Of a stretch of DNA of 64,000 nucleotides, positions 3,113 to 26,421 are shown one piece after another. Origin of the DNA: Aromatoleum anaerobium. Lineage in GTDB: Bacteria > Pseudomonadota > Gammaproteobacteria > Burkholderiales > Rhodocyclaceae. A model generated the notes under the pieces. The model saw nothing but the letters and a program-made list of their open reading frames with translations, made no database searches and was not told the origin of the DNA. The DNA is taken from NCBI RefSeq assembly GCF_012910705.2, contig NZ_WTVG02000040.1:992001-1056000 (forward strand). Reading direction: 5' to 3'. The position numbers were made by a program, and so were the translations under genes. How positions within the stretch are numbered: position 1 is the first letter of the stretch; each line of letters begins with the position of its first letter.

Positions 3113-4279
3113 ATGCGCCTGCGCGCTGTAGTCGTCAGCTTGCTGTGGCTGGTCCTTGCTGGTACTGCGCATTCCGCGACGCTTCGTGTGGGTCCGGACG
3201 AGGCAATCACCTCCATCGCAGAGGCTGCACGTCTCGCCCGGGACGGGGACATCGTCGAAATCCAGCCGGGCGAGTATCGCGGCGCCGTTGCCTCATGGAC
3301 GCAACGGCGACTGACGATCCGCGGCGTCGGCGAGCGGCCGGTACTGATCGCCGACGGCAGGAGCGCCGAGGACAAGGCGATCTGGGTGATCCGCAATGGC
3401 GACTTCGTCATCGACAACATCGAGTTTCAGGGCGCCCGCGTCCCCGACGGCAACGGCGCGGGCATCCGTTTCGAGCGGGGTAAGCTGCACGTCCGCAACT
3501 GCGCATTCGTCGACAACCAGACGGGGATCCTCACCAGCAACTTCATCGACGCCGAATTGCGCATCGACGACAGCCTGTTCACCGACGCGCCGCGCCAGGA
3601 GCACTCCCTGCCCCATCTGCTCTACGCCGGGCGGATTGCGCGACTCGAGATCTTCGGCAGCCGCTTCCATAACGGATACCGCGGCCACTTGATCAAGTCG
3701 CGTGCACGACGCACTGACCTCCGGTACAACCTGATCTATGACGGGCGCGCCGGCGAAGCCTCATACGAAATCGACCTGCCCAATGGTGGCGACGCGACGC
3801 TCGTCGGCAATGTGATCGGTCAAAGCGCGAGGACGCACAATCCCGTCGTTGTCGCCTACGGTGCCGAAGGGCATGCCTGGCCGGAAAACGCGCTTGTACT
3901 GTCGCATAACACCTTGACGAGCGCCCACACCTTCGGCGCCTGGTTCCTGCGCGTATGGAGGGATCGTATCGGCGCGGATGTCCGCGTGCGGGGCGTCAAT
4001 AACCTGGTGGTTGGGCTCGGCGCCTTCACGCTCGGCGCCAGCGGCGAATTCCGAGGCAACTTCCCGGCGCTGAGCGGGATGCTGAACGATATCGAAGCTC
4101 TCGACTTTTCGCTCGCACCCGGCTCGCTGCTGCGTGGACGTGGCGAAAACGTCCCGACCAGCCCGGACGGCGACGTCGTTCCCGACGCCGAATTCCAGCT
4201 CCCGATCGGCCGGCGGCCGCTCACCGCCCCCGCGCACTGGACACCCGGAGCCTTCCAGCGCGCTGGCGATGCGCGATAG
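3113..4279 (+). CDS. Secreted right-handed beta-helix protein
   Basis: A 388-residue exported protein. Residues 1-21 (MRLRAVVVSLLWLVLAGTAHS) form a signal peptide cut before ATLRVGPDE. The rest has the stacked-coil pattern of a parallel beta-helix: ITSIAEAARLARDGDIVEIQPGEY at the N-cap, then repeated short strands such as FVIDNIEFQGA, LHVRNCAFVDN, LRIDDSLFTD and ATLVGNVIGQS. This fold is common in polysaccharide lyases and carbohydrate-binding surface proteins. No catalytic site can be assigned. The frame is open upstream, but ATG 3113 begins the signal peptide. It faces the acylation operon tail to tail. Confidence 0.75.
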   Translation: MRLRAVVVSLLWLVLAGTAHSATLRVGPDEAITSIAEAARLARDGDIVEIQPGEYRGAVASWTQRRLTIRGVGERPVLIADGRSAEDKAIWVIRNGDFVIDNIEFQGARVPDGNGAGIRFERGKLHVRNCAFVDNQTGILTSNFIDAELRIDDSLFTDAPRQEHSLPHLLYAGRIARLEIFGSRFHNGYRGHLIKSRARRTDLRYNLIYDGRAGEASYEIDLPNGGDATLVGNVIGQSARTHNPVVVAYGAEGHAWPENALVLSHNTLTSAHTFGAWFLRVWRDRIGADVRVRGVNNLVVGLGAFTLGASGEFRGNFPALSGMLNDIEALDFSLAPGSLLRGRGENVPTSPDGDVVPDAEFQLPIGRRPLTAPAHWTPGAFQRAGDAR

Positions 4280-4299: not shown

Positions 4300-5448
4300 C
4301 TACAGCCCGAGCCAGCGTCCGATGATGTTGCGCTGCATCTCGGAGGTGCCCGAATAGATGGTGCTGCCGACCGCGTCACGCAACGCGCGCTCGACCTCGT
4401 ACTCGACCATATAGCCATAGCCGCCGTGCAGATGGACCGTGTCGAGGGCGGTCCGGAGCAGGGACTCGCTGACCATCAGCTTTGCCATTGCGGCATCCAG
4501 CGACGCATTGCGCAGGTTCTCGAGCCGCCACGCGGCGCGGTAGGCGAGTAGCCGCGCGGCTTCGAGCTGGACCTTCATGTCGGCGATCTTGTGCGCCACG
4601 GCCTGAAACTTTCCGATCGCCTGGCCGAACTGGTTGCGCGTGCGCGCATAGGAGATTGACGTCTCGAGGAGCCGCTCGATGGTTCCGACATGGCTCGCGA
4701 CCAACAGGCAGCGCTCCCAGTCCATCGCCGTGGAGAACACAGCGGAACCGCCCCCGACCTGACCGAGCACGGCCGACGGTGAAACATACATGTCGGTGAA
4801 CACCAGTTCTCCCACCGGCGACGTCCGCAGCCCGAGCTTCTCGAACTTCTGTCCCGCGGAAAAACCGGGGGTATCGCTTTCGACGAGAAACGCGGTCACT
4901 CCGCCGTGAAAACCCTTGGCCGGTTCGGTGACCGCGAACACCACCGCAACGTCGGCGACCGGACCGTTGGAGATGAACGTCTTGGTGCCGTTGATGCGCC
5001 AGCCGTCGCGGTCGCGCTCGGCATGGGTGCGCATCGAAAAGGAATCCGAACCGGAATCGGGTTCGGTGATCGCGTGGGCGCCGACCAGGGTGCCGTCGCA
5101 CAGCCCCGGCAGATAACGACGCTTCTGTTCCTCGCTGCCATGCCGCCATACCGGCACCACACAGGCGAGCAGGTGGGCGCACAGCGAAAACACGAGTCCA
5201 CCGTCCCTGCACCCATAGCCCAGCGCCTCCAGCACCATCGCGCATGACAAGGCATCGAGGCCGGTCCCGCCATACGCTTCGGGAACCGGCAGGCCCTGAA
5301 TGCCGACGTTGGCACATTCTCGCCACAGGTCGCGGGAAAAGACCTGCTCGCGATCGCGCTCAACAACGTACGCATTGAGCGAGCCTCGGGCGAATTTGAT
5401 GATGTTGTCGCGCAGGAGTTTCTGCTCTTCGGAATAGGCGAAGTCCAT
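4300..5448 (-). CDS. PltE-like acyl-CoA dehydrogenase (probable aminoacyl-carrier oxidase)
   Basis: A 382-residue FAD-dependent acyl-CoA dehydrogenase with the family segments EAYGGTGLDAL, AITEPDSGSDSF, ARTRNQFGQAIGKFQA and HGGYGY. The position that holds the catalytic Glu in most members (Y-E-G-T) is Ser366 in IYSGTSEMQ; a Glu is present instead at 245 in MDWERCLL, where isovaleryl-CoA dehydrogenase keeps its base. From memory, prolyl-carrier dehydrogenases such as PltE share both features and also the GLVF...AH..AC..P stretch. It is the last gene of the operon, overlapping the adenylation gene by ATGA, so the substrate is probably the aminoacyl group on the neighbouring carrier. A fatty acyl-CoA substrate is the less likely alternative. 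Confidence 0.82.
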   Translation of the reverse strand: MDFAYSEEQKLLRDNIIKFARGSLNAYVVERDREQVFSRDLWRECANVGIQGLPVPEAYGGTGLDALSCAMVLEALGYGCRDGGLVFSLCAHLLACVVPVWRHGSEEQKRRYLPGLCDGTLVGAHAITEPDSGSDSFSMRTHAERDRDGWRINGTKTFISNGPVADVAVVFAVTEPAKGFHGGVTAFLVESDTPGFSAGQKFEKLGLRTSPVGELVFTDMYVSPSAVLGQVGGGSAVFSTAMDWERCLLVASHVGTIERLLETSISYARTRNQFGQAIGKFQAVAHKIADMKVQLEAARLLAYRAAWRLENLRNASLDAAMAKLMVSESLLRTALDTVHLHGGYGYMVEYEVERALRDAVGSTIYSGTSEMQRNIIGRWLGL

Positions 5449-7016
5449 CAGCCCAGCTCCTTGAGTCGCTGGTAGTCCGTCTTGTCCGTCGACGTCTTCG
5501 GCAGGGCATCGAGCCACTTGAAATGGTCGGGGATCATGTACAGCGGTATCCGCTCCGCGCAGAAGCGCTTGAGTTCGATCAGGGAGGCCTTGTCCGTCCC
5601 CTTGCTGCTCAGGAATGCGCTGATCCGCACACCCGCTTCGGCATCCGGCACGGCGACGACGGCAACCTCCTTGACCAGCGGATGCTGATACAGCCCCGCC
5701 TCGATTTCACCGAGCTCGACCCGGTAGCCGCGCCGCTTGACCATGCGGTCGCGCCGGCCGCGGTAGATATGGTTTCCGTCGGCTGCTTCGACGACGATGT
5801 CGCCGGTCCGGTACCAGCGCGTTCCGTCGTCATCGACGAGGAAGCTTTCCGCGGTGCGCTCCGGCAACGACCAGTAACCCTGCATCACGCCGCTGCCGGT
5901 AATGCACAGTTCGCCCTCTTCTCCCGGCTTCACCGGCGCGTTGTGCTCGTCGACGACCTTGCCACGCAGGTGCTCGCACACCTTGCCGATGGGATAGGGC
6001 GACGTACGCTCGTCAGGCACCGGCGGAACAACTTCGTAGTAGGTGCAGACGTTGGTTTCGGTCGGGCCGTAGAGGTTGAAATAGCGGGGTTGCGGCAACT
6101 GCGAACACAGCGTCCGGAGATGCTTGACCGGGAACACCTCGCCCGCGAACAGGACGAGGCGCAGCGAAGAGCAGTCCTGGCTGCGGAGATCGCCGAACTG
6201 CGCCATCAGGCTGAGGATCGACGGCGCGGAGTACCAGATGCTGATCCTTTCCTCGGCAATCAGCCTGGCCAGATGCAGCGCGTCCTTGCCCCGTTCCTCC
6301 GGGATCAGCACGAGGGCCGCGCCATGTTTGAGGGCGACATGGATGTCGAGGATCGAGAGGTCGAAATGCAGCGGCGCGTGAGACGAGAAGCGGTCATCCG
6401 GCTGCGGTTCGAACACCGCGGAACACCAGTCGACGAAACTCACGGCGTTGTCGTGCGAGAGCATCACGCCTTTCGGCTTTCCGGTCGAGCCCGACGTGTA
6501 GAGGATGTAGGCGAGATCTTCGGGCGGCGACATCGCGTTCTTCGCCGCCGCGGCCGGCCGCTGCGCGTCCGCTTCGTCCAGCAGGCGGGCGAGCGGACCG
6601 CCACCGCCGGCTCCGTCGAGCAGCAGCAACGGCGGCAGCTCTCCGAGCTCGAAAAATTCCGTGGAAAAACGGTCCTCGAGGCGCCTCTCCATGACGACCG
6701 CCCGCACGGCGCAGTTGTGCATGATGTAGGCATTGCGAGGGGGCGGCGCGTCGGGATCGACCGGCACGTAGGCGGCACCTGCCTTGAGAATGCCGTAGAT
6801 CGCAGCGATGGCGTCGATCGACTTGCGCAGGTAGAGACCCACCCGGTCGCCGGGGCGCACGCCGAGGGTGACGAGCCGGTCACGCAACCGGTCGGACAAC
6901 GCGTCGAGCGCGGCATAGCTGATCGCCCCCCGCTCAGGCTCGACGACTGCGATGCGCGACGGATGGAGGGCGGCCGCGTCGCAGAGGAATTGATGCAGCG
7001 GGCGTGGATTCGACAT
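5448..7016 (-). CDS. Amino acid adenylation enzyme, PltF/DltA-like
   Basis: A stand-alone 522-residue adenylate-forming ligase that should activate a carboxylic acid with ATP and load it on the carrier encoded next to it. Core motifs: ILYTSGSTGKPKG (171-183), HFDLSILDIH (217-226), YGPTETNVC (316-324), YRTGD (402-406), and the C-terminal catalytic Lys512 in TSTDKTDYQ. It lacks condensation and carrier domains. The HAPLHFDLS, ISIWYSAPS and NLYGPTETNVCT segments resemble proline-activating PltF-type enzymes as I remember them; DltA (D-alanine) is the other close model. The start has GAGGT 8 bases upstream, 6 bases after the carrier gene. Substrate specificity is inferred, not shown. Confidence 0.85.
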   Translation of the reverse strand: MSNPRPLHQFLCDAAALHPSRIAVVEPERGAISYAALDALSDRLRDRLVTLGVRPGDRVGLYLRKSIDAIAAIYGILKAGAAYVPVDPDAPPPRNAYIMHNCAVRAVVMERRLEDRFSTEFFELGELPPLLLLDGAGGGGPLARLLDEADAQRPAAAAKNAMSPPEDLAYILYTSGSTGKPKGVMLSHDNAVSFVDWCSAVFEPQPDDRFSSHAPLHFDLSILDIHVALKHGAALVLIPEERGKDALHLARLIAEERISIWYSAPSILSLMAQFGDLRSQDCSSLRLVLFAGEVFPVKHLRTLCSQLPQPRYFNLYGPTETNVCTYYEVVPPVPDERTSPYPIGKVCEHLRGKVVDEHNAPVKPGEEGELCITGSGVMQGYWSLPERTAESFLVDDDGTRWYRTGDIVVEAADGNHIYRGRRDRMVKRRGYRVELGEIEAGLYQHPLVKEVAVVAVPDAEAGVRISAFLSSKGTDKASLIELKRFCAERIPLYMIPDHFKWLDALPKTSTDKTDYQRLKELG

Positions 7017-7022
7017 ATCGCG

Positions 7023-7280
7023 CTACCTCGCCTTGGAGGTGAGGAGACTGGCGATGCTGCGGATCGTGTCGAGGTGTTCCTTGTCCGCTTCGTGGGCCTC
7101 GAGCACGATGCCGTACTGCTCCTCGAAATGCAGAACCAGTTTGAGCGTGGCGATCGAATCGAGGATCCCGCCGCTGATCAGCGGCAGGTCATCGGTCAGT
7201 TCATCCGGATTCTCGCCCGGTAGAAACTCTTCGAGGATGTAATCCTTGACGATCCTGCGGAAGTCGATGCTGGTCTCCAT
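7023..7280 (-). CDS. Phosphopantetheinyl carrier protein (DltC/PltL-like)
   Basis: An 85-residue carrier protein. Ser42 in SGGILDSIATLKLV is the predicted attachment site for phosphopantetheine; the flanking acidic helices (FEEQYGIVLEAHEADKEHLDTI) are typical. It lies 22 bases after the acyltransferase gene and 6 bases before the adenylation gene. It therefore probably receives the activated amino acid, presents it to the dehydrogenase, and hands the product to the membrane acyltransferase, as DltC does in D-alanylation. Confidence 0.88.
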   Translation of the reverse strand: METSIDFRRIVKDYILEEFLPGENPDELTDDLPLISGGILDSIATLKLVLHFEEQYGIVLEAHEADKEHLDTIRSIASLLTSKAR

Positions 7281-7302
7281 CGCTGCCTCACTATCAAATC
7301 AA

Positions 7303-9840
7303 TCAGCGCCCGGCTGGTTGGAAAATGACCTCGCGCTTTTCCGCCAGGCCATCGAAGAGTCGTTCCGCGATCAACTGGTGACCGCGCACGTTCGGATGAT
7401 CATCCCACTCGGCGAGCCGAATTTCGTCGATGTTCCGCCCCTTGTAGACGTCCTCCTGGTTAATCACGACGAAGCCCGCCGCGTCGGCGACGGCGACCGC
7501 CTCGGCCGTCTCTTCCTGCCAGCTACCTTCCCGCACCTGGGGCAGGAAGATCCACACCGGCACGCTGCCGTGTTTGCGCGACTCCTCAGCAATGCGGCCA
7601 TAGACATAGGTAAGCACCTCCCGACGATAGGGCGTTAGTCGCTTGCGAGCCTCTCCCTCGTCCATCCCGACCGTGACACCCGCTTTGCTCGCAATGTCCC
7701 GCAGACCGTCATAGGGAATGTCGATGCCCTTATTGACAGCTTCGGCAAGGTAGGCCGCCGCACGGGAAATCTCGTGCCCGGTTGCAATATAGAAGATTGC
7801 ATGCGGCTGGAATTCGAAGGCCTTCTCTGCCATGACCAACTGCTGCGGCGGTTGATAACCGGGCACGCCCATGTTGAGCAGTTCGTACTTGTCGAACGCT
7901 CCACCGGCCCATTCCCGGTTCAACCGGTCCTCCACCACCGCCTCGAAAGTCTGGCCGTCACCCACACCCCAGCCCATCACCGACGACGCCCCCAGGACGA
8001 CTCCCCGGAAGGTGCCGGCGGCAGGCAGGGCTTCGTAATCCCGATCGCGCATACCGAAACGGTTGATGCTGATCGTGCCGTGCTTGGTGGTCTGAACAAA
8101 GGACGGAATCAGTTCGGTCTGCGCGAATCCTCCGACAAAGTGCTTCAAGTTCGTGCTCTCGACATCCAGCCAGTTCTTCGGCTTGTTCATATAGACCTCC
8201 CACAACTGGGAGTTGAAGCGATCGACCGACAGCAAGTTCTCGTAGTAGCCCCGCTCCAGTTGCGCGGTATCGAGTCGGCTCAGTTGCCCCGAACGCAGCG
8301 AATGCACGAAGGTGCCGAAATCCTTGCCGAGCTGCAGGTGCAGCGCTTCGACGCTCACGGTGAGGAGCGCGAACAGTGATGCAACGGTGACAAGGCGGCT
8401 CCGCATCCAGGTGCGATCATCCTGAGCGGAGGCACGCACATTGCGCAGGGACTCGCGCGGGATGCTGCCGGCAATGATGACCGCCAGCACCACGGACGGA
8501 TACAGCAGCATCCGGGCGGTGTACTCCCCACCCAGCGCAGCCCACAACGAGACCCACGCACCGAGCGACTCGGTCGTCCAGAATGACCACAGCACGCAAA
8601 TGAACCAGAACGTGGCGTAGGTCTTGAACACCAGCACAGCGGTCGTGCGCCACGTTCGGGTCGGCGTCCCGAGGCTGCGGGCACGACCATGCCGCATCTC
8701 GTAAAGCGAATTGGCCACCACCAGCAAGCCGAGGATGCCCCAGAACAGCATGTCCTGCGCGACGAGCAGCATCGTCCCACGCAGCCAGAACCACTGGTAG
8801 GCGTGCAGGAACCACGTCATGAGAAAGACGTACAGCGTGGCAAGCACCAAGGCCTTCTCCGTACCCAGCTTGCGCAGTTTGAATACCGCCGGGTAATAGA
8901 AGACCTTCTGCATGAACTCCTTCCAGTAGATATTGATGCGCCGCCAGAAGTCCGTAAAGCTCGACGCCAGCAAGTAGCGGTTGTGCGTCTCGGGCAGACG
9001 AAAGCCGAACAGATAGAGCATTCCGACAATCAGATGGAATAGACCGGAAACACGCAGGTAGAGGAGGAAATTCGATACGAGGTACTGGATCAACTCGGCC
9101 GGATTGGCGACCTCGTGCGGCGCCAGCGTCAGGTAGTAATAGACGATGCGGTAGAGGATCAGATGCATCACGCCACGCACCATCCAGTCGATGCCGACCT
9201 GGTAGATACGATACGCATCGTCGTCGAAGTAGTTGCGCCGAAAGGTCTTGAAATCGATTACGGGGAAAAGCGGAAAGCAGGCATTCGGCAACATGAAGAA
9301 GTAGGCCAGCGACTGCGCAGGCGACGGGGGGGTCTTGTCATGGCGCAGATCATAGAAATAGCCGATCAGCCGGAACATGAACATCGCGCCGAGGATCGGC
9401 CAGATCGCGTCCGACCACGGAAACGGCAGGTGGCCGGCACGTTGCAGTGCAAGGATGCCCGCTGCGCCCAACAAGAGCGCCCCGCGCCACGCGAAGGACA
9501 CCGGAAGATGACAGATACCGACCAGAGCGAGGCTGATCGTCACGAGCCATGCCGCATTCACACCGCCCATGACGACGCCGATCCCGGCCAGGCTCAGCAT
9601 CACAAAAAACGGCAACCGCATGCGCAATGGCAGCCAGGCGTGGATTGCGAAACCTGCGAAGGCGAGCATGGCAAGCCGCAGAAACGCGGCGGATTCGATC
9701 TGGAACTGGCGCAGAAGCAGCAGCAGCAGTGCGAGCTGTGCGACGACAAGAAAATAATTGACCAGGCTGATCTGTCCCTTTTCTGCCGCTTCACCGGCAA
9801 TCTGGCCGGGCGCCCGCGCAAGAACGGCCGTCAAGGTCAT
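7303..9840 (-). CDS. MBOAT membrane acyltransferase fused to SGNH domain
   Basis: An 845-residue protein. Residues 25-500 contain many membrane helices and the MBOAT core: SSFTDFWRRINIYWKEFM (294-310) and the presumed catalytic His346 in TWFLHAYQWFW. Residues about 505-845 form a soluble SGNH-like domain with LGASSVMGWG (616-625), NMGVPGYQ (656-663), TGHE (687-690) and a terminal DDHPN (813-817). MBOATs pass acyl groups across the membrane, and SGNH partners usually complete transfer onto a glycan. It is the first gene of the operon, so the acyl group made by the downstream genes is probably its donor. The start was set by GGAG 7 bases upstream of ATG 9840; the frame stays open upstream. Confidence 0.85.
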   Translation of the reverse strand: MTLTAVLARAPGQIAGEAAEKGQISLVNYFLVVAQLALLLLLLRQFQIESAAFLRLAMLAFAGFAIHAWLPLRMRLPFFVMLSLAGIGVVMGGVNAAWLVTISLALVGICHLPVSFAWRGALLLGAAGILALQRAGHLPFPWSDAIWPILGAMFMFRLIGYFYDLRHDKTPPSPAQSLAYFFMLPNACFPLFPVIDFKTFRRNYFDDDAYRIYQVGIDWMVRGVMHLILYRIVYYYLTLAPHEVANPAELIQYLVSNFLLYLRVSGLFHLIVGMLYLFGFRLPETHNRYLLASSFTDFWRRINIYWKEFMQKVFYYPAVFKLRKLGTEKALVLATLYVFLMTWFLHAYQWFWLRGTMLLVAQDMLFWGILGLLVVANSLYEMRHGRARSLGTPTRTWRTTAVLVFKTYATFWFICVLWSFWTTESLGAWVSLWAALGGEYTARMLLYPSVVLAVIIAGSIPRESLRNVRASAQDDRTWMRSRLVTVASLFALLTVSVEALHLQLGKDFGTFVHSLRSGQLSRLDTAQLERGYYENLLSVDRFNSQLWEVYMNKPKNWLDVESTNLKHFVGGFAQTELIPSFVQTTKHGTISINRFGMRDRDYEALPAAGTFRGVVLGASSVMGWGVGDGQTFEAVVEDRLNREWAGGAFDKYELLNMGVPGYQPPQQLVMAEKAFEFQPHAIFYIATGHEISRAAAYLAEAVNKGIDIPYDGLRDIASKAGVTVGMDEGEARKRLTPYRREVLTYVYGRIAEESRKHGSVPVWIFLPQVREGSWQEETAEAVAVADAAGFVVINQEDVYKGRNIDEIRLAEWDDHPNVRGHQLIAERLFDGLAEKREVIFQPAGR

Positions 9841-10106: not shown

Positions 10107-12014
10107 TCACGCCGACAGCGCTCCACGCCGCTGCAGCTCGAGCACCAGATACTCGGCCGCATCGTCCGGGCCAAGGCGCGTCGTGTCGATACGGATCTCC
10201 GGGTTCTCCGGCGCTTCATACGGCGAGTCGATGCCAGTGAAGTTCTTCAGTTCGCCGCGCCTTGCCTTCTTGTAGAGGCCTTTCACGTCGCGCTGCTCGG
10301 CAACATCGAGCGGCGTGTCGATGAACACCTCAAGGAACTCGCCCTCCTTGAGCAGCGCGCGCGCCATCTGCCGCTCGGCGCGGAACGGCGAGATGAACGC
10401 GGTGATGACGATCAGCCCTGCATCGACCATCAGCCGCGCGACTTCACCGACGCGCCGGATGTTCTCGACCCGGTCCGCGTCGGTGAAGCCCAGATCCTTG
10501 TTCAGCCCGTGCCGCACGTTGTCGCCGTCGAGAAGGTAGGTGTGGCGGCCGAGCGCATGCAGCTTCTTCTCGACGAGGTTCGCGATCGTCGACTTGCCCG
10601 CGCCCGACAGGCCGGTGAACCACAGCACGCACGGCCTCTGGTGCTTCAGGCGGGCCCGCGCCGCGCGGTTGACGTCGACGTGCTGCATGTGGATGTTCTG
10701 GCTGCGGCGCAGCGCGAAGTGCAGCAGGCCGGCGCCGACCGTGTCGTTGCTGAGGCGATCGATGAGGATGAAGCCGCCGGTGTCGCGGTTTTCGGCATAG
10801 GGGTCGAACGCGACCAGGCGGTCGAGACTGAGGTTGCAGACGCCGATTGCATTCAGCTCGAGCGTCCTCGCGGCGATGTGCTCGAGCGTGTTGACGTTCA
10901 CCTGGTACTTGATGTGTGTCACTGCCGCGGTGACGGTCTTCGCACCGATTTTCATCAGATATGGCCGACCGGGCAGCAACGGTTCGTCGCGCATCCACAC
11001 CAGCGTGGCTTCGAACTGGTCGGCCGATCCGGCGGGCGCGGCGGCGGCCGAAATCACGTCGCCGCGGGAGATGTCGATCTCGTCCGCGAGCGTCAGCGTG
11101 ATCGACTGGCCGGCGACCGCGCAGTCGAGATCGCCGTCGCGCGTGACGATGCGCGCGACCGTGCTCTCCTTGCCGGACGGCTGCACGCGGATGCGGTCAC
11201 CCGGCTTGACGATGCCACCGGCGATCGTGCCGGCGAAACCGCGGAAATCGAGGCTCGGCCGGCTCACCCACTGCACCGGCAGCCGGAAAGGCTGCTTTTG
11301 CAGGCGGTTCTCGTCGATTTCGACGGTTTCGAGATAACCCATCAGCGTCGTGCCGTGGTGCCACGGCATGTGCTCGCTCGGCGCGGTGATGTTGTCGCCC
11401 CTGAAAGCCGACATCGGGACGAAGGTCACGTTCTTCAGCCCGATTTGCTCGGCAAATGCGCGGTAATTCTCGACGATACGATGGAAGACGGCCTCGGAAT
11501 AATCGACGAGATCCATCTTGTTGATCGCAACGATGATGTGGCGGATGCCGAGCAGCGACACGAGGTAGCTGTGCCGGCGCGTCTGCGTCAGCACGCCGCG
11601 GCGCGCATCGACCATCAGCACGGCGGCGTCGGCGGTCGAGGCGCCGGTCACCATGTTGCGCGTGTATTGCTCGTGCCCGGGCGTGTCGGCGACGATGAAC
11701 TTGCGCTTGTCGGTCGAGAAGAAACGGTAGGCGACGTCGATCGTGATGCCCTGCTCGCGCTCCGCCGCGAGCCCGTCGACGAGCAGCGCGAAATCGAGCG
11801 CCTCGCCCTGCGTGCCGTATTTCTTCGAATCGGCCTCGATCGCCGCGAGCTGATCCTCGAACAGCATTTTCGATTCAAACAGCAGGCGGCCGATCAAGGT
11901 GCTCTTGCCGTCATCGACGCTGCCGCAGGTGATGAAGCGCAGCAGGCTTTTCTTCTCATGTGCCCGCAGGTATTGCTCGATGTCGGTGGCGATGAGATCG
12001 GAGCTATGAGACAT
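10107..12014 (-). CDS. cysNC: Bifunctional sulfate adenylyltransferase subunit 1 / adenylylsulfate kinase
   Basis: A 635-residue fusion. The N-terminal two thirds is the CysN GTPase: [14 protein letters not shown] (P-loop), DTPGHEQY (G3), NKMD (G4), then beta-barrel domains. The C-terminal third is APS kinase CysC with its own P-loop [14 protein letters not shown] and [17 protein letters not shown]. With CysD it converts sulfate to APS, and the kinase makes PAPS, the universal sulfate donor. The start overlaps the cysD stop by ATGA. This NodQ-like architecture is typical where PAPS serves sulfotransferases; no cysH or sulfite reductase gene is present in the window, while sulfotransferase genes are. 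Confidence 0.95.
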
Positions 12015-12913
12015 CAGAAGTACCCCTCCTGCTTCTTCTTTTCCATCGACGCGGCCGAATCGTGGTCGATGACCCGGCCCTGGCGCTCGGACGTTTTGGT
12101 CAGCAGCATTTCCTGGATGATCGCCGGCAGGGTGTCGGCGTCGGACTCGACCGCGCCCGTCAGCGGATAGCAGCCGAGCGTGCGAAAGCGCACCTTCTTC
12201 ATCATCGGCACCTCGCCGGGTTTGAGCGGCATGCGCTCGTCGTCGACCATGATCAATGCACCGTCGCGCATCACCACCGGCCGCTCGGCCGCGTAGTACA
12301 GCGGCACGATCGGCACGCGCTCGAGATGGATGTACTGCCAGATGTCGAGCTCGGTCCAGTTCGACAGCGGAAACACCCGCATCGACTCGCCCTTGTGCTT
12401 CCTGGCGTTGTAGAGCTTCCACAGCTCCGGGCGCTGGTTCTTCGGGTCCCAGCGGTGCTGCACGGTGCGGAACGAGAAGATGCGCTCCTTGGCGCGGGAT
12501 TTCTCCTCGTCGCGCCGTGCGCCGCCGAACGCAGCGTCGAAGCCGTATTTGTCGAGCGCCTGCTTGAGCCCCTCGGTTTTCATGATGTCGGTGTGGATCG
12601 CCGAGCCGTGCGTGAATGGGTTGATGCCCTTCTCGACGCCTTCGGGATTGACATGGACGATCAGGTCGAGCCCGAGTTGGCTGACCATGCGGTCGCGAAA
12701 CGCATACATGTCGCGGAATTTCCAGCGCGTATCGACGTGCAGCAGCGGGAACGGTGGCTTTGCCGGATGGAAGGCCTTCACCGCGAGATGCAGCATCACC
12801 GCGCTGTCCTTGCCGATCGAGTAGAGCATCACCGGGTTTTCCACCTCGGCGACGACCTCCCGCATGATGTGGATGCTTTCGGCTTCGAGCCGCTGCAGAT
12901 GGGTAAGTGACAT
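12014..12913 (-). CDS. cysD: Sulfate adenylyltransferase subunit 2
   Basis: A 299-residue ATP sulfurylase catalytic subunit that forms APS from sulfate and ATP, driven by the CysN GTPase. The PP-loop [17 protein letters not shown], the HVDTRWKF segment, [16 protein letters not shown] and [16 protein letters not shown] are all present, and the length is normal. It starts [20 protein letters not shown] as expected for CysD. It is first in the cysD-cysNC operon and divergent from cysQ, so the shared gap at 12914-13030 probably holds both promoters. Confidence 0.96.
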
Positions 12914-12984
12914 CGTCGTCCTCTTGATGACGCAGGATTACATTTTGCGCGTCCGCGGCACGAACCGGCCCGATGAAAACTGCC

Positions 12985-12990
12985 TACAAT
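12985..12990 (+). promoter_or_regulatory. Possible -10 element of the cysQ-permease operon
   Basis: TACAAT matches the sigma-70 -10 hexamer in five of six bases and lies about 40 bases upstream of the preferred cysQ start, but no convincing -35 accompanies it. Confidence 0.25.
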
Positions 12991-13024
12991 GGCCGTGGTA
13001 CCGAGTTTAGCAACTGTCCGGAGT

Positions 13025-13060
13025 GCCTTTGTGACCGATTCCGCCTTTGTGACCGATTCC
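13025..13060 (+). repeat. Perfect 18-bp tandem duplication at the cysQ start
   Basis: The 18-base unit beginning GCCTTTGTGACC occurs twice head to tail (13025-13042 and 13043-13060). Each copy contains an in-frame GTG (13031 and 13049), so the duplication creates two possible cysQ start codons. Confidence 0.95.
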
Positions 13061-13834
13061 CATTCCCGCGGCAAGCTGCTCGAAACGCTCGTTCCGCTCG
13101 CGAGACGCGCCGGCGACGTGATCATGTCCGTTTATGCGACGGACTTCGAGATCCGCGGCAAGGACGATGCATCGCCGGTCACCGAAGCCGACGAGCGGGC
13201 CGAGGCGGTGATCCTCGCCGGCCTCGCGGCGCTCGCGCCGCAAATCCCGGTGATCGCCGAGGAGGCGGTCGCGGCCGGCTGCATCCCGGAAATCGGCGAG
13301 CGCTTCTGGCTCGTCGATCCGCTCGACGGGACGAAGGAATTCATTCGGCGCAACGGCGAATTCACCGTGAACATCGCGCTGATCGAAGCCGGGCAGCCGG
13401 TACTCGGCGTCGTGCTGGCGCCGGCGCTCGGACGGCTTTACGCGGGGGCCGTCGGCGCCGGCGCCTTCGTCGAGGACGATCGCGGTCGCCGCCCGATCCG
13501 CTGCCGCCTGCCGCCGGACGAGGGACTCACCGTCGTCGCCAGCCGCTCGCACGGCGACGCCGCGGCGCTCGACGCGTTCCTTGCCGGACGCAAGGTCGCG
13601 AGCCGCGCCAGCGCCGGCTCGTCGCTGAAGCTCTGCCTCATCGCGGCCGGCGAAGCCGATCTCTATCCGCGGCTCGGGCGGACGATGGAATGGGACATCG
13701 CCGCCGGTCACGCCGTGCTCGAGGCGGCGGGCGGCCGCGTCAGCCAGATCGACGGCCGCCCGCTGCACTACGGCAAACCCGACTTCGCCAATCCGCATTT
13801 CGTCGCCTCCGGATTCGCCGACCCAACCGTCTGA
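13031..13834 (+). CDS. cysQ: 3'(2'),5'-bisphosphate nucleotidase
   Basis: CysQ-type phosphatase of the inositol monophosphatase superfamily; it hydrolyses PAP, the product left after PAPS-dependent sulfation, and can also hydrolyse PAPS. Metal-site motifs: IAEEAV, WLVDPLDGTKEFIRRNGEF, and EWDIAAGHAVLEAAGG. GTG 13031 is preferred because CGGAG lies 8 bases upstream; an ATG at 12989 (in-frame, 14 residues longer) and GTG 13049 are alternatives created partly by a local duplication. It is divergent from cysD and co-transcribed with the permease gene. Confidence 0.92.
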   Translation: MTDSAFVTDSHSRGKLLETLVPLARRAGDVIMSVYATDFEIRGKDDASPVTEADERAEAVILAGLAALAPQIPVIAEEAVAAGCIPEIGERFWLVDPLDGTKEFIRRNGEFTVNIALIEAGQPVLGVVLAPALGRLYAGAVGAGAFVEDDRGRRPIRCRLPPDEGLTVVASRSHGDAAALDAFLAGRKVASRASAGSSLKLCLIAAGEADLYPRLGRTMEWDIAAGHAVLEAAGGRVSQIDGRPLHYGKPDFANPHFVASGFADPTV

Positions 13835-13868
13835 CCCCACTGCTGCGCCCGCCCGGCGCGGATACCGC

Positions 13869-15596
13869 ATGACTGCCTATGTCGTCCTGCTGTCGATCGT
13901 CGTCCTGCTCGCCTTGCTGATACGCGGACGGACCTCGCCCGCCGTACTGTTCACCGCGTGGGCGGCCGGCTACTATCTGGCGGGCCTCGTCGACGAGCGC
14001 AAGTGGCTGACGAGTTATTCGAACCCGGCGCTGGTAACACTGATCGTGCTGCTGCTGGTTTCGCTCGCGCTCGAGCGATCGCCACTGCTCGACCGCTTTG
14101 CCGGCGTAGTCCTCAAGGGCCGGCCGTCGATGGCGGTCCTGCGGCTGTCAGTCGTCACCGCGCTGGTGTCGGCCTTCCTGAACAACACCGCGGTCGTCGG
14201 CGCGCTGCTGGGCGTGATCTCCCGGCAGCGCCATCTTCCCGCGTCGAAACTGCTGATTCCGCTGTCGTACGCCGCGATTCTCGGTGGCATCACGACACTG
14301 GTCGGCACTTCGACGAACCTGGTCATCAATTCGTTCGTCATCGGCGCCGGTCTGCCGCCCCTCGGGATGTTCCAGTTCACCGCCGTCGGCGTGCCTGTCG
14401 CACTCGCCTGCATCGCAGTGATGGCGCTCGGTTCGCGGCTGTTGCCGGCCCATGAGACGGCATCGAAGGAGAACCGCCAGGCGTATTTTCTCGAAGCACA
14501 AGTCACCCCCGGCTCGCCGTTGGCAGGCAAGAGCATCGAGCAGAACCGCCTGCGCAGCCTCGACGGGCTGTTCCTGCTCGAGATCGAACGCGACGGCCGG
14601 CTGATTTCGCCGGTCGGGCCGGATGAAACATTGCGCGAAGGCGACGTCCTCGTGTTCACCGGCGAGATCGGCAAAGTCCAGGCGCTGCAGCAGTTTTCCG
14701 GCCTGCACGTGTTTGGCACCCGCGCCGATACGCTGCTCGGCTCGAACCTTGTCGAGGTCGTCATCTCGAACGAGTCGATGCTGCCGAACCGCACATTGCG
14801 CGACGTCGATTTCCGCTCGCAGTTCGACGCCGGCGTCGTCGGCATCCGCCGCGGCGACAAACGCCTGACCGGCCAGCTCGGGCGCATCCCGCTGCGCGTC
14901 GGCGACTGCCTGCTGCTCGCCGTCGGCGCCGACTTCGCCCAGCACCGCAACATCGACCGCAACTTCCACCTGCTCGATGGCGGCCTGCTGCGACCAAAAC
15001 TCACCAGCCATCAGAGCCGGATCGCGCTGTCGGGCTTTGCACTGGCGATCGCGCTGTCGGCATTCGACGTCTGGCCGCTGCTCAATGGCCTGCTCGCGCT
15101 GCTCGCGGCGCTGCTCGCCACCCGCATGCTGACGATCGACGAGATGCGCCGGCGGTTTCCGTTCGAACTGCTGCTGATCATCGGCTCGGCGCTGACGATC
15201 GCCACCGCGCTGGAATCCTCCGGCGCCGCGCAACTGGTTGCCAATTCGATGCGCAGCGCCTTCGACGGCTACGGGGTGACCGGCGCCTTCATCGGCGTCT
15301 ATCTGATCACGCTGGCACTGACCGAGGTGATCACGAACAACGCCGCCGCAGCACTCGCCTTTCCGATCGCGATATCGACCGCACGCGCTTTCGGCGTCGA
15401 CCCGATGCCCTTCGTGATGGCGGTGGCCTACGGGGCCAGCGCCGGTTTCCTGATTCCGTTCGGCTATCAGACGCACCTGATGGTGATGTCGCCCGGAAGC
15501 TACCGCATCACCGACTTCTTCAAGGCTGGCGTGCCGGTCAGCCTGACCTATTCGGCCGTCGTGCTGCTGCTGGTGCCGGTGTTCTTTCCGTTCTGA
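13869..15596 (+). CDS. SLC13/DASS-type anion permease with TrkA-C domains (probable sulfate importer)
   Basis: A 575-residue membrane protein with two blocks of helices (about residues 1-195 and 385-575) around a cytoplasmic insert. The insert carries two TrkA-C (RCK_C) regulatory repeats, seen as QVTPGSPLAGKSI...LREGDVLVFTGE and VVISNESMLPNRTL...LRVGDCLLLAVG. Transport-site motifs are NNTAVVG, GTSTNLVINS in the first half and NNAAAALAFPIA, PFGYQTHLMV in the second, an inverted-repeat arrangement. Family members of this layout transport sulfate or other anions. It lies 34 bases after cysQ, which supports sulfate as substrate. Confidence 0.85.
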   Translation: MTAYVVLLSIVVLLALLIRGRTSPAVLFTAWAAGYYLAGLVDERKWLTSYSNPALVTLIVLLLVSLALERSPLLDRFAGVVLKGRPSMAVLRLSVVTALVSAFLNNTAVVGALLGVISRQRHLPASKLLIPLSYAAILGGITTLVGTSTNLVINSFVIGAGLPPLGMFQFTAVGVPVALACIAVMALGSRLLPAHETASKENRQAYFLEAQVTPGSPLAGKSIEQNRLRSLDGLFLLEIERDGRLISPVGPDETLREGDVLVFTGEIGKVQALQQFSGLHVFGTRADTLLGSNLVEVVISNESMLPNRTLRDVDFRSQFDAGVVGIRRGDKRLTGQLGRIPLRVGDCLLLAVGADFAQHRNIDRNFHLLDGGLLRPKLTSHQSRIALSGFALAIALSAFDVWPLLNGLLALLAALLATRMLTIDEMRRRFPFELLLIIGSALTIATALESSGAAQLVANSMRSAFDGYGVTGAFIGVYLITLALTEVITNNAAAALAFPIAISTARAFGVDPMPFVMAVAYGASAGFLIPFGYQTHLMVMSPGSYRITDFFKAGVPVSLTYSAVVLLLVPVFFPF

Positions 15597-15853
15597 TCCT
15601 CCAGGCGGGCAGACAGACGGGTCACGAACTCGACCACCGTTCCGACGGTTGCAAACGAACTGCCGTCGATCTCGTCATCCGGCACCTCGATCGCGAAACG
15701 TTCCTCGATCGTGTGAATCACCGCGAGCACCGCCATCGAATCGAGCTCCGGCACACTCCCCAGCAGGGGCGTTTCGGCATCGAACTGCAATCCGCGGCCA
15801 TTGAGATTCAACACCTCATCGAGCAGCGACAAGACTTCTTCCTGGATATTCAA
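15548..15853 (-). CDS. Acyl carrier protein, exosortase A system-associated
   Basis: A carrier protein of about 101 residues with the phosphopantetheine Ser in LGSVPELDSMAVLAVIHTIEERF and the acidic helix EVPDDEIDG. TTG at 15853 is preferred because AAAGGAG ends 8 bases upstream; ATG 15877 would add eight residues but has no ribosome binding site. Divergent from the acyl-CoA ligase with which it is expected to work, and its 3' end overlaps the permease gene by 49 bases tail to tail. In XrtA genomes this carrier, a ligase and a PLP decarboxylase recur together; the product is not known. Confidence 0.85.
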   Translation of the reverse strand: MNIQEEVLSLLDEVLNLNGRGLQFDAETPLLGSVPELDSMAVLAVIHTIEERFAIEVPDDEIDGSSFATVGTVVEFVTRLSARLEDQNGKNTGTSSSTTAE

Positions 15854-15903
15854 GGCACTTACTCCTTTGCGCGCCATTACATGCCGGCGATCCGAGCGAT
15901 CGG

Positions 15904-15931
15904 TCGACAGCGCTAAACTGCGCATTATACT
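15904..15931 (+). promoter_or_regulatory. Divergent promoter region between carrier and ligase genes
   Basis: On the plus strand TCGACA (15904-15909) and TATACT (15926-15931) are spaced by 16 bases, each matching consensus in five of six positions. On the minus strand the same bases give a perfect TATAAT (15929-15924), though without a clear -35. The region would drive the ligase to the right and the carrier to the left. Confidence 0.4.
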
Positions 15932-16036
15932 TGCCGCCTCACTGTTCCCTGTGCGATCCCTGCGGGCCGCGACGAGCACGAACCGCTGCTTTCAGGCGCG
16001 CGCCACACCCCCGATGCCGACCGGACGCCGAGCACG

Positions 16037-17632
16037 ATGACTTCCGCCCACCTGCTTCACGAGCTGATTTTCGCCTCGGCCGGACGCGCCGGCGATGATC
16101 CCGCCTTGACCAGCGGCAAGCGCAGCGTCTCCTATGCCGACCTCGACGAACGCTGCCGGGCGTTCGCATCCGGCCTCGTCGAGCTTGGCCTCGCGCGCGC
16201 GGAACGAGTCGGCGTCTATCTGGACAAGCGCATCGAATTCGTCGTCGCGGCCTTCGGCAGCGCTGCCGCCGGAGGGGCGTTCGTCCCGCTGAATCCATTG
16301 CTGAAGCCCGACCAGGTGGGCCACATCCTGCGCGACTGCAACGTCCGCGTGCTGGTCACCAGCATCGAGCGGCTCGCGCTGCTGCAAGCGGTGCTTGCGC
16401 AGTGTCACGACCTGCGCCAGGTCGTCATCGTCGATGATCCCGCCGAACTGCCCGCGGTGAGCGGCGCCAGTGCCCATCGCTGGAGCGAGCTCGAGGACGT
16501 TGCGCGACGGGCCGGCCATCGCGTCATCGACACCGACATTGCCGCGATCCTCTACACTTCCGGCAGCACCGGCCGGCCCAAAGGCGTCGTGCTGTCGCAC
16601 CGCAACCTCGTCGTTGGCGCACGCAGCGTCGCGCAGTACCTCGGCAATCAGGCCGGCGACACCCTGCTCGCTGCGCTGCCATTGTCCTTCGACGCCGGGT
16701 TTTCGCAGCTCACGACCGCGTTCCACGCCGGCGCGCGCGCGGTGCTGATCAACTACCTGCTGCCGCGCGACGTGCTGAACGCGGTCGTGCGCGAACGGGT
16801 CACCGGCCTGACCGCGGTGCCGCCGCTGTGGATCCAGCTGGCCGGACTCGACTGGCCGGAAACGACCGGCGAGCATCTGCGCTACATCGCGAACACCGGC
16901 GGCCGCCTGCCGCTCGACACGCTGAAGACCCTGCGCGCAAAGCTGCCGCGCGCCCGCCCCTTCCTGATGTACGGCCTGACCGAGGCGTTCCGCGCAACCT
17001 ATCTGCCGCCCGAGGAGGCCGAGCGCCGCCCCGACTCGATCGGCAAGGCGATCCCGAATACCGAAGTGCTCGTGCTGCGCGAGGACGGCAGCGAATGCGC
17101 ACCGAACGAACCCGGCGAACTGGTACAGCGCGGCGCGCTGGTCGCGCTGGGCTACTGGAACGATCCGGAAAAGACGGCCGAACGCTACCGGCCGTTGCCG
17201 GCGGGCGTCGCGGGGCGCGAAGGCGGCCTGGTGATTCCCGAAATCGCGGTGTTCTCCGGCGACACCGTGCGCCGCGACGAGGAAGGTTTCCTGTACTTCA
17301 TCGGCCGGCGCGACGAGATGATCAAGACCTCCGGCTACCGCGTCAGCCCGACCGAAGTCGAGGAGATCGTTTACTCGACGGCGCTGGTCGGCGAGTGCGC
17401 CGCCTTCGGCCTGCCCCACCCGACGCTCGGCCAGACGATCGGCGTCGTCGCGACACCGGCGCACGGCACCACGCTCGACACCGCGGCGCTGCTCGCCGAG
17501 TGCCGCCGGCGCATGCCGGCCTACATGGTGCCGGCCCGCATCGAACTGCGCGACGGCGCGCTGCCGCGCAACCCGAACGGCAAGATCGACCGCAAGGGGT
17601 TGGCAGCAGAATACCCGGCCTATAATTCATAA
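16037..17632 (+). CDS. Acyl-CoA ligase (AMP-forming), exosortase A system-associated
   Basis: A 531-residue adenylate-forming enzyme resembling the XrtA-associated ligase family (TIGR03098 as remembered). Motifs: ILYTSGSTGRPKGVVLSHRN, YGLTEAFRATYLPPEE, FSGDTVRRDEEGFLYFIGRRDEMIKTSGYRVSP and the C-terminal NPNGKIDRKG catalytic Lys. It should activate a carboxylic acid and load it on the divergently encoded carrier. The start follows a 160-base divergent promoter gap. Next comes a toxin-antitoxin pair, then the PLP decarboxylase that normally sits beside this gene. Confidence 0.9.
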   Translation: MTSAHLLHELIFASAGRAGDDPALTSGKRSVSYADLDERCRAFASGLVELGLARAERVGVYLDKRIEFVVAAFGSAAAGGAFVPLNPLLKPDQVGHILRDCNVRVLVTSIERLALLQAVLAQCHDLRQVVIVDDPAELPAVSGASAHRWSELEDVARRAGHRVIDTDIAAILYTSGSTGRPKGVVLSHRNLVVGARSVAQYLGNQAGDTLLAALPLSFDAGFSQLTTAFHAGARAVLINYLLPRDVLNAVVRERVTGLTAVPPLWIQLAGLDWPETTGEHLRYIANTGGRLPLDTLKTLRAKLPRARPFLMYGLTEAFRATYLPPEEAERRPDSIGKAIPNTEVLVLREDGSECAPNEPGELVQRGALVALGYWNDPEKTAERYRPLPAGVAGREGGLVIPEIAVFSGDTVRRDEEGFLYFIGRRDEMIKTSGYRVSPTEVEEIVYSTALVGECAAFGLPHPTLGQTIGVVATPAHGTTLDTAALLAECRRRMPAYMVPARIELRDGALPRNPNGKIDRKGLAAEYPAYNS

Positions 17633-23666: not shown

Positions 23667-23794
23667 TCTCCGGCGACGGACGGATACGGTGATACCGGTC
23701 CCGCAAAGGCATGCAAGGCCCCGACGAAGCCGCGTTCGGGGGCAAGCGGCGGACTCTCAAGCAGTGGGACACGACCACGGCGGGATTCATAGCG

Positions 23795-25354: not shown

Positions 25355-26421
25355 TGAAATACGAAACCGACTCCCGCCGCCACATGATTTATGTCATATG
25401 TATGATTCTCGCATGGGGGCTGTCGAGCCTGCTCGTGCTCGCTGCAAACATTATTATTGACCCGCTCTGGTATCACCGGGGCAACCTCATCACCGGCAAG
25501 AATTTCGGATATGACGAACGCCAAGCCAAATTGAACCGGCTGTTGCGCGAGCCTTCGGAATACGACTGCCTGATTTTCGGAAGCTCGCGGACGACGCTGC
25601 TCCCAGGGTCGGCTTTCGCACCCTATCGCTGTTTCAATCTCTCGTTTTCCGGGGGCCTGATCGAGGAATTCATCGCGTTCTCGGAGTATCTCCGTGAGTT
25701 CGGAGTGCGCCCCAAGCTGATCGTCGTCGGCGTCGATGGATTCAACTTCATGGTGAATGATAGAGACCCGCCAAGCATTCCAGACTATGTGATCCGCAAA
25801 CAACCGGCGCCGGCTTTGCTGCGCACCTACCTGTCTATCGACAGCCTCTCGATGTCATGGCGCACGCTACGGGGGGACACCGGGCGTCCGCGCTACTATG
25901 ACCGGAACTTCGACGCGGTGATCCGCGCAGATGCTCCTGTGTTTCGCCCACGGCGGAGCCTTGACGCGGAGGGTCTCCGCCGCGTCGACACCGAAGCATG
26001 GCGCAAACGGGGTTACAGCCCCGACAACGCAATCCTGTTCGGAAAACTGGTGACCGTTTTTCCAGGCGCGCAGAGCATCGCGTATGTCCCACCGATCAGC
26101 GCCTGGCATGTTCGAGCGATGGAACAAAATGGCACGCTCGAGAGTTATCTTGACGCCCTTCACGCTACAGCCCGGAATTTTCCGGTCTTCGTGGACTTCT
26201 CGATTCCGTCACCGGTCACTTGGCGCACGGATAATACTTACGACGGTTCTCACTATGCGCCTTCGGTCAATCGCCGGATCGCGCACGTCATTCTGACGGC
26301 GGACGAGCCGGAATGGGGGCTCAACGTAAACCAGGTCGACAGGGCAAGCTACGTAAACCGATACCGAAGCGCACTGGCCGAATTCGAAACTGTCAACGCG
26401 ATGCTGAAGGTATCGCAATGA
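25354..26421 (+). CDS. Membrane-anchored SGNH-like protein, MBOAT partner
   Basis: A 355-residue protein with an N-terminal anchor (YVICMILAWGLSSLLVLAANIII). The periplasmic part has a Ser loop, DCLIFGSSRTTLLPGS, and a C-terminal Asp-His segment, NTYDGSHYAPSVN, matching the first and last blocks of SGNH hydrolases. It is read directly from the MBOAT stop codon. By analogy with AlgJ/X and PatB it probably takes the acyl group from the MBOAT and places it on the glycan. Confidence 0.72.
   Translation: MKYETDSRRHMIYVICMILAWGLSSLLVLAANIIIDPLWYHRGNLITGKNFGYDERQAKLNRLLREPSEYDCLIFGSSRTTLLPGSAFAPYRCFNLSFSGGLIEEFIAFSEYLREFGVRPKLIVVGVDGFNFMVNDRDPPSIPDYVIRKQPAPALLRTYLSIDSLSMSWRTLRGDTGRPRYYDRNFDAVIRADAPVFRPRRSLDAEGLRRVDTEAWRKRGYSPDNAILFGKLVTVFPGAQSIAYVPPISAWHVRAMEQNGTLESYLDALHATARNFPVFVDFSIPSPVTWRTDNTYDGSHYAPSVNRRIAHVILTADEPEWGLNVNQVDRASYVNRYRSALAEFETVNAMLKVSQ

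Follow-up and report, generated by a model that had tools for sequence, protein, structure and literature searches.

Proline-derived pyrroles arise in thiotemplated pathways of the PltF–PltL–PltE(–PltA) type, which combine a ligase with an L-proline code, a stand-alone carrier protein and a prolyl-carrier dehydrogenase and feed polyketide, peptide or bipyrrole assembly lines; the Pig, Red, Clo and Bmp proteins are their counterparts. In clorobiocin biosynthesis (CloN1, CloN2, CloN7), a proline-derived pyrrole-2-carboxyl group is placed as an ester on a sugar hydroxyl, and the excerpts of PMC11218499 assign its formation to CloN4, CloN5 and CloN3, with transfer involving CloN7. The D-alanylation (Dlt) system (DltA, DltC, DltB, DltX, DltD) comprises an adenylation enzyme, a carrier, an MBOAT and an SGNH transferase. 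Its acyl donor is a carrier thioester, as opposed to the acyl-CoA used by PatA, and in both PatA and DltB with DltX the acyl group reaches the serine of the SGNH partner by way of a tyrosine in a C-terminal FXYXXF motif; a carrier protein of this kind is absent from the other MBOAT–SGNH pathways, according to the excerpts of PMC12148441. Here we describe four adjoining genes in a 64,000-nucleotide stretch of the Aromatoleum anaerobium genome (the window; RefSeq assembly GCF_012910705.2, contig NZ_WTVG02000040.1, positions 992,001 to 1,056,000) that appear to join these logics. With a probability that we put at roughly two in three, they form a carrier-fed surface acylation cassette, in which proline becomes a carrier-bound ring acyl group and is passed to an extracytoplasmic acceptor. 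Judged from its sequence, the cassette would work like Dlt with Plt chemistry, without being a member of the Dlt family.

The genes of the cassette, in window coordinates, are as follows.

7303..9840, minus strand: MBOAT–SGNH fusion protein (P0004), 845 amino acids (alignment, predicted fold)
7023..7280, minus strand: stand-alone carrier protein, 85 amino acids, with Ser42 in GGILDS, Ser42 codon at 7155–7157 (PF00550)
5448..7016, minus strand: stand-alone adenylation enzyme (P0002), 522 amino acids, predicted L-proline–carrier ligase (TIGR01733, 6o6e match, pocket code)
4300..5448, minus strand: predicted prolyl-[carrier protein] dehydrogenase, 382 amino acids (profiles, PDB matches, active-site pair, tree), with the Glu245 codon at 4714–4716 and the Ser366 codon at 4351–4353

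An earlier reading of this DNA from its letters (the sequence-only reading) had described these as one operon of four genes with overlaps or gaps of at most 22 bases, and its coordinates, on the minus strand from 9840 to 4300, are right: 22 bases separate the fusion and carrier genes, 6 bases separate the carrier and adenylation enzyme genes, and the adenylation enzyme and dehydrogenase genes join in a one-base TGATG overlap. The gene set it had named, an MBOAT–SGNH fusion, a Ser42 carrier, an adenylation enzyme and an acyl-CoA-dehydrogenase-type protein, is borne out by profiles or predicted fold, with Pfam families recognised in the carrier, the adenylation enzyme (AMP-binding) and the dehydrogenase. 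A promoter and terminator scan gave a single promoter-like site upstream of the fusion gene, not above the level of shuffled sequence.

The likeness to Dlt, which the sequence-only reading had drawn from the adenylation enzyme, the carrier and the MBOAT, is closer than that reading claimed, as the fusion covers DltB (MBOAT) and DltD (SGNH) and perhaps the DltX shuttle. Unlike Dlt, however, the cassette has a proline code, an extra dehydrogenase and its MBOAT and SGNH parts in one chain; it matches no Dlt model at cut-off and has no DltX-like small gene beside it. It shares with the thiotemplated pyrrole pathways the L-Pro code, the stand-alone carrier, the prolyl-carrier dehydrogenase clade and, in the cassettes of two related species, a PltA-type halogenase, but its carrier-bound group is predicted to go to the membrane MBOAT–SGNH protein and not to an assembly line, so that, taken as a pyrrole pathway, the cassette would end in a membrane transferase. 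The same membrane transferase sets it apart from clorobiocin synthesis, where the substrate of CloN7 is a small antibiotic and a second carrier takes part. From the PatA/PatB and AlgI/AlgJ systems it takes the pairing of MBOAT and SGNH partners, with catalytic His and Ser conserved in the fusion, whereas PatA, in the excerpts of PMC12148441, uses acyl-CoA, a separate SGNH partner and a C-terminal FXYXXF shuttle. Neither a joined operon of this kind nor a pyrrole-decorated polysaccharide was found among the matches listed in the open-licence literature (titles and abstract openings), which leaves subscription journals mostly outside and absence unproven.

The first half of the proposed chemistry falls to the adenylation enzyme, the carrier and the dehydrogenase. 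The adenylation enzyme exceeds the cut-off of TIGR01733 (393.1 bits versus 317.4) and falls far short of that of the DltA model TIGR01734 (272.5 of 559.85). With pocket columns set from motif positions through PheA segments and an alignment to PltF, its code reads DLLYLALVCK (D219, L220, L223, Y262, L289, A291, L315, V323, C324 and K512). This is the code of stand-alone L-proline enzymes, whose consensus is given in the excerpts of PMC3874040 as L(L/F)YLALVC between an invariant Asp and Lys. The best PDB match of the adenylation core is 6o6e, which the excerpts of PMC11253843 identify as PltF, the L-prolyl-carrier ligase of pyoluteorin synthesis. Among 58 cassette ligases, including that of the window, 41 carry DLLYLALVCK, 6 carry DLFYLALVCK and 2 carry DLLYLALVC with a gap at the terminal position, which makes 49 of 58 that fit the consensus; each of the other nine differs at one pocket position. 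The other ligase of the window has the code DASTATMRAK. The sequence-only reading had thought prolyl the most likely substrate, and the pocket comparison it proposed has come out in its favour: we regard activation of L-proline and loading of the carrier by this enzyme as a strong prediction. The carrier, for its part, retains Ser42 in all 69 copies and is not of DltC type at cut-off (TIGR01688, 25.6 of 52.35; PRK05087, 30.8 of 68). Two other labels were considered and set aside. The exosortase A-associated ligase model (TIGR03098) gives P0002 only 276.1 of 592.35 bits, and the true member of that family in the window lies at 16037–17632 with 792.9 bits. The NCBIfam model "ornithine lipid biosynthesis acyl carrier protein" gives the carrier 121.2 bits against a cut-off of 130, and its name, which may rest on genomic context, was not adopted because OlsH works without an acyl carrier protein in the excerpts of PMC12493201.

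For the dehydrogenase, the best NCBIfam models are PigA (444.8 bits) and RedW (431.4), followed by a next model at 316.8. Among solved structures it matches best the prolyl-ACP dehydrogenase 4irn and the L-prolyl-carrier dehydrogenase 5zw0. All 51 cassette dehydrogenases that were scanned match both the PigA and the RedW models, with best E-values of 2.4e-142 and 6e-131, as opposed to 4e-102 for the next model. A helix-G Glu (Glu245 in the window enzyme) and a Ser at the usual Glu site occur together in 48 of 48 full-length cassette copies, three truncated ones being excluded, and in both references. Many members of the family have Glu where the cassette enzymes have Ser, and we take the catalytic glutamate of AnaB and Bmp3, from the 4irn alignment, to be the residue aligned with Glu245. 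In the excerpts of PMC10849742, this conserved glutamate is essential in both enzymes. For comparison, 12 loci were fetched from 32 dehydrogenase matches in the same genome; one was the window gene and one was too short, leaving ten relatives of more than 300 amino acids. The helix-G Glu occurs in one of these ten and the Ser in none, with a gap at the Ser site in two. In a tree of the 48 copies, the two references and these ten paralogues, the cassette enzymes and references form one clade (support 100/100) with the references nested inside it and the paralogues outside. The sequence-only reading had left room for an ordinary beta-oxidation enzyme; the phylogeny groups the protein instead with the two prolyl-carrier dehydrogenases and not with the ten own-genome relatives, and clade and active-site pair together are those of a prolyl-carrier dehydrogenase. 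Oxidation of the prolyl thioester on the carrier is thus strongly predicted, and the joining of Plt logic to Dlt logic in one operon, which the same reading had proposed, gains support from the L-proline code and this clade alike.

The fusion protein is less easily placed by profiles. A Pfam scan found no family in it, and NCBIfam gave a weak SGNH-type match, far under cut-off, and no match to the DltB model. An AlphaFold model, built on 77 sequences of an alignment of 80 fusion relatives, has a mean predicted local distance difference test score of 88.3, and its best PDB match is DltB (8jem; E 1.2e-7, template-modelling score 0.66 by target length), yet neither a DltB nor an MBOAT profile matches the sequence. 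PORCN and HHAT, again MBOATs, come next, LPCAT3 is also among the matches, and lower down (E 1e-3 to 1e-2) are SGNH-type enzymes of about 180–220 residues, including TesA and PatB, whose matches, from their size and from the motifs, we would assign to the C-terminal part. The positions on which the reading of the fusion turns are listed here, with counts from the 80-sequence alignment.

8938..8940, minus strand: Arg301 in FWRRINIYWK, taken as the MBOAT signature (80/80)
8803..8805, minus strand: His346, putative MBOAT catalytic histidine (80/80)
8233..8250, minus strand: linker motif G531-Y532-Y533-E534-N535-L536, with Y533 as candidate internal acyl-shuttle tyrosine
7984..7986, minus strand: Ser619, putative SGNH nucleophile (80/80)
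7396..7404, minus strand: Asp813-x-His815 of the SGNH part (Asp 76/80; His 79/80, with one gap)

Asn303 (78/80) and Asn656 (79/80) are also conserved. Because of the predicted fold and the invariant residues, the protein is in all likelihood an MBOAT–SGNH fusion, although profile libraries miss its MBOAT half; a predicted MBOAT fold with invariant His346 stands beside the SGNH set Ser619/His815/Asp813, as in MBOAT–SGNH envelope acyltransferases, and the sequence-only reading of this gene, too, is supported by the DltB-like fold and the invariant His, Arg and Ser. The linker motif is nearly invariant across the fusion relatives as G-Y-Y-E/D-x-L/I (Tyr533 80/80, Tyr532 79/80, Gly531 79/80, Leu or Ile at 536 80/80), and we propose, by analogy, that this GYYExL motif may be the acyl shuttle of the fused family, a candidate substitute for FXYXXF. 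Among open reading frames of at least 20 amino acids beside the cassette, inspected by eye, none is DltX-like or carries FXYXXF, in a search confined to these surroundings and not extended to the whole genome. The window holds a second MBOAT (23711–25354) whose C terminus is exactly FLYFQF, that is, of the FXYXXF type. This gene matches the DltB model and is followed, within 23711–26421, by a DltD-like partner that was recognised by eye and has no Pfam family.

The four genes also travel together. A three-sequence alignment, used as the query in one scan against 84,980 species genomes, gave 237 fusion relatives, of which 79 distinct loci were kept, many of them on contigs of metagenome-assembled genomes; with L039, L040 and L041 the set comprises 82 loci, in which presence was called at score thresholds that we set. 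All four genes are found in 47 of the 82, the others being cut by contig ends or missing parts. Where at least 5 kb flanks the fusion gene on both sides (44 of the 79 loci), the full set is present in 37 and the dehydrogenase in 39. Gene order, strand and the addition of halogenase-like genes vary among the 47 complete cassettes, giving 12 patterns, and record titles place these cassettes in Pseudomonadota, Acidobacteria, Gemmatimonadetes, Planctomycetota, Verrucomicrobia, Myxococcota, Hydrogenedentota, Calditrichia and Rhodothermaceae. The association of the four genes is more than chance. Strong matches (E < 1e-100) occur in 3 of 274 genomes sampled from the window's class, and the gene is found at 86% identity or more in 3 of 17 genomes of its genus, its own genome included in both counts. 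Six loci (L064, L067, L081, L082, L086 and L095) hold two to four MBOAT–SGNH copies each, some cut by contig ends; perhaps the copies serve different acceptor positions.

Related cassettes contain a further enzyme that the sequence-only reading had not foreseen. L039 (genome G143) has carrier, ligase and dehydrogenase genes in this order, then a flavin halogenase gene and the MBOAT–SGNH gene; the surrounding genes include ones that read as undecaprenyl-phosphate sugar transferase-like and glycosyltransferase-like. The best PDB matches of the halogenase are 5buk (Mpy16) and PltA. In G256, of the same genus (g145), a block of carrier, ligase, dehydrogenase and halogenase lies about 7 kb from the fusion gene, likewise among glycosyltransferase-like genes, and the halogenase belongs to the tryptophan-halogenase family by Pfam. 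Halogenase-like genes, defined by at least 80 bits to the L039 enzyme within the fetched stretch, lie near the fusion gene in eight more loci (L056, L085, L091, L095, L103, L111, L117 and L120); the Pro of the WxWxIP motif is missing in those of L103 and L111 and in one of the two in L095. Because PltA-type halogenases act on an aromatic pyrrole, the halogenase-bearing loci favour pyrrole over pyrroline and add support to the pyrrole reading. In the two species of g145, the pyrrole is probably halogenated by the flavin enzyme before it is transferred. The window cassette has no halogenase.

The acceptor is addressed by the gene neighbourhoods. Outside the cassette, no gene cluster is common to more than 9 of the 82 loci, and the cassette therefore looks self-contained. 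After exclusion of five closely related Mesorhizobium loci and the plasmid L041, 147 neighbouring genes were collected from 30 four-gene loci, and removal of 19 of at least 700 amino acids left 128; the commonest Pfam families among them, in the first 25 of 129 families, are Glyco_trans_1_4 (13), Glycos_transf_1 (12) and Glycos_transf_2 (5), which overlap. Within the genus of the window, the cassette of G274 adjoins a beta-helix-like gene and argB. That of G275 has transporter/cysQ genes on one side and an exosortase-associated carrier with a ligase on the other; the protein matches of the dehydrogenase and this carrier are about 6 bases apart. In G277, argB lies directly next to cysNC, about 70 bases away, with no cassette in between. 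Since presence and position differ within one genus, the module appears to have been gained, lost or moved at the edge of a polysaccharide locus. Our best guess for the acceptor, from these neighbourhoods, is an exopolysaccharide or other envelope glycan.

We thus picture four steps. The adenylation enzyme would activate L-proline and load it onto the carrier, and the dehydrogenase would oxidise the prolyl thioester, likely by four electrons, to pyrrole-2-carboxyl. The DltB-like MBOAT half would then move the acyl group from the carrier across the membrane and hand it, perhaps via the linker Tyr533, to Ser619 of the fused SGNH half, a step suggested by the fold and the invariant residues. Finally, the SGNH half would esterify the extracytoplasmic acceptor, most likely the exopolysaccharide or other envelope glycan to which the neighbourhoods point. 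A fuller version, that a mobile, multi-phylum cassette adds pyrrole-2-carboxyl esters, in some lineages halogenated ones, to surface polysaccharides through a one-chain counterpart of DltB–DltX–DltD whose linker tyrosine carries the aromatic acyl group, is one that we hold tentatively and would not yet bet on. If the cassette does work in this manner, it would be a second carrier-fed MBOAT–SGNH pathway besides Dlt, with an acyl group rebuilt on the carrier before export, and would build secondary-metabolite chemistry into envelope biogenesis. Bacterial envelopes would carry an aromatic substituent, in some species a halogenated one, with possible consequences for adhesion, phage receptors and the chemistry of biofilms. 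Many ligase, carrier and dehydrogenase genes with general names would gain a function, and transmembrane acyl transfer could be studied in a one-polypeptide system.

A number of observations weigh against this picture. Seven of the 44 well-flanked loci (L057, L095, L096, L099, L103, L114 and L119) are without at least one part; in L057 the ligase is broken up and in L114 the carrier scores at the threshold. The dehydrogenase lies under the equivalog cut-offs of PigA (500) and RedW (650), and the 51 cassette dehydrogenases also match general dehydrogenase models at the same E-value limit. AnaB (4irn) stops at pyrroline, and a two-electron product is possible in cassettes without a halogenase. 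When the full-length adenylation enzyme is searched against the PDB, multi-domain gramicidin synthetase chains rank above PltF by summed score; the G256 ligase has, by eye, Val in place of the Cys of the code, and for the L039 ligase a DltA subfamily model (cut-off 476) gives 302.6, not far below the 322.7 from TIGR01733. In the fusion, the canonical FXYXXF motif is absent, the least confident inner stretch of the model, residues 534–541, is where the proposed shuttle motif lies, and the PatB fold match is weak (E about 0.01) and comes from a match table without aligned ranges. Lastly, most neighbours do not belong to glycosyltransferase families, the commonest of which accounts for 13 of 128 in a tally without a matched control, and the immediate neighbours in the window are argB with the beta-helix-like gene and cysNC, the polysaccharide genes being about 6 kb away.

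Among other explanations, two keep the carrier route and differ in the acceptor or in the group that is transferred. The same loading and oxidation could serve a lipid, a glycolipid or a small secreted metabolite in place of a polysaccharide. No glycan gene is a constant partner, because no neighbour cluster is that widespread; LPCAT3, PORCN and HHAT are among the fold matches of the fusion, and MBOATs such as these also acylate lipids and proteins. Clorobiocin, a small molecule, bears just such a sugar-esterified pyrrole-2-carboxyl group in the excerpts of PMC11218499. But MBOAT–SGNH pairs are known for acylation of envelope polymers (excerpts of PMC12148441), both g145 halogenase cassettes sit among glycosyltransferase-like genes and the G275 cassette touches an exosortase-associated locus, and we consider a non-polysaccharide acceptor unlikely, though worth keeping in mind. 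It is also conceivable that the dehydrogenase withdraws two electrons and that a pyrroline carboxyl, or even unoxidised prolyl, is transferred. Sequence does not reveal how far the oxidation goes, and a solved relative from the anatoxin pathway, which gives pyrroline, nests in the cassette clade; the pyrrolyl-carrier-type halogenases of related cassettes, however, should need an aromatic ring, and this outcome seems distinctly improbable.

The remaining two explanations dispense with one end of the cassette or the other. The thiotemplated pyrrole pathways use just this set of carrier, adenylation enzyme and dehydrogenase, which could make a conventional starter unit of the prodigiosin or pyoluteorin type beside which the MBOAT lies by accident; G143 does have very large multi-module adenylating genes. 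Those genes, though, are on another contig, no polyketide- or peptide-synthetase family appears in the first 25 of 129 Pfam families of the 128 neighbours, and the MBOAT–SGNH protein is a constant partner across varied gene orders, all of which makes an accident very unlikely. Ordinary Dlt D-alanylation with an unrelated beta-oxidation dehydrogenase alongside has in its favour that the four activities correspond to those of DltA, DltC, DltB and DltD and that DltB is the best fold match. Nevertheless, the DltA and DltC models score far under cut-off and no DltB model matches the fusion, the proline code is conserved, and a dehydrogenase that is placed with prolyl-carrier enzymes recurs in 39 of 44 well-flanked loci. 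The model scores, the code, the tree and the linkage together lead us to reject this possibility, to which we give scarcely any credence. A carrier-fed acylation of the cell surface with a proline-derived ring therefore remains our preferred reading.

The wider surroundings of the cassette offer several further observations. In the window it is flanked by argB and the beta-helix-like gene on one side and by cysNC on the other.

3137..4279, plus strand: beta-helix-like protein, module membership uncertain (weak PF13229 match under cut-off; synteny)

A beta-helix-like protein adjoins the cassette in the window (3137–4279), in G274 and in L047 (L047:15616–16806), on the cassette strand in L047 and on the opposite strand in the window and G274. 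The loci L126, L127 and L128 present a cassette-free argB–cysNC junction and two different cassette positions in one genus. The interval 10107–15596 contains the CysNC fusion, CysD- and CysQ-like genes recognised by eye and a CitMHS/TrkA-C transporter. The polysaccharide locus of the window begins at about 15.5 kb, with an exosortase-A-associated ligase, a flippase-like protein, a sulfotransferase and glycosyltransferases; a second carrier and the exosortase-A-associated ligase occupy 15548–17632, and the sulfotransferase lies at 28461–29354. Given the CysNC, CysD and CysQ genes and this sulfotransferase, the polysaccharide of the window may be sulfated. Farther along, at 34440–37625, is a protein of 1061 amino acids in which a sulfatase domain follows a glycosyltransferase 2 domain, and at the opposite end of the window, at 290–733, a barstar-family protein is encoded.

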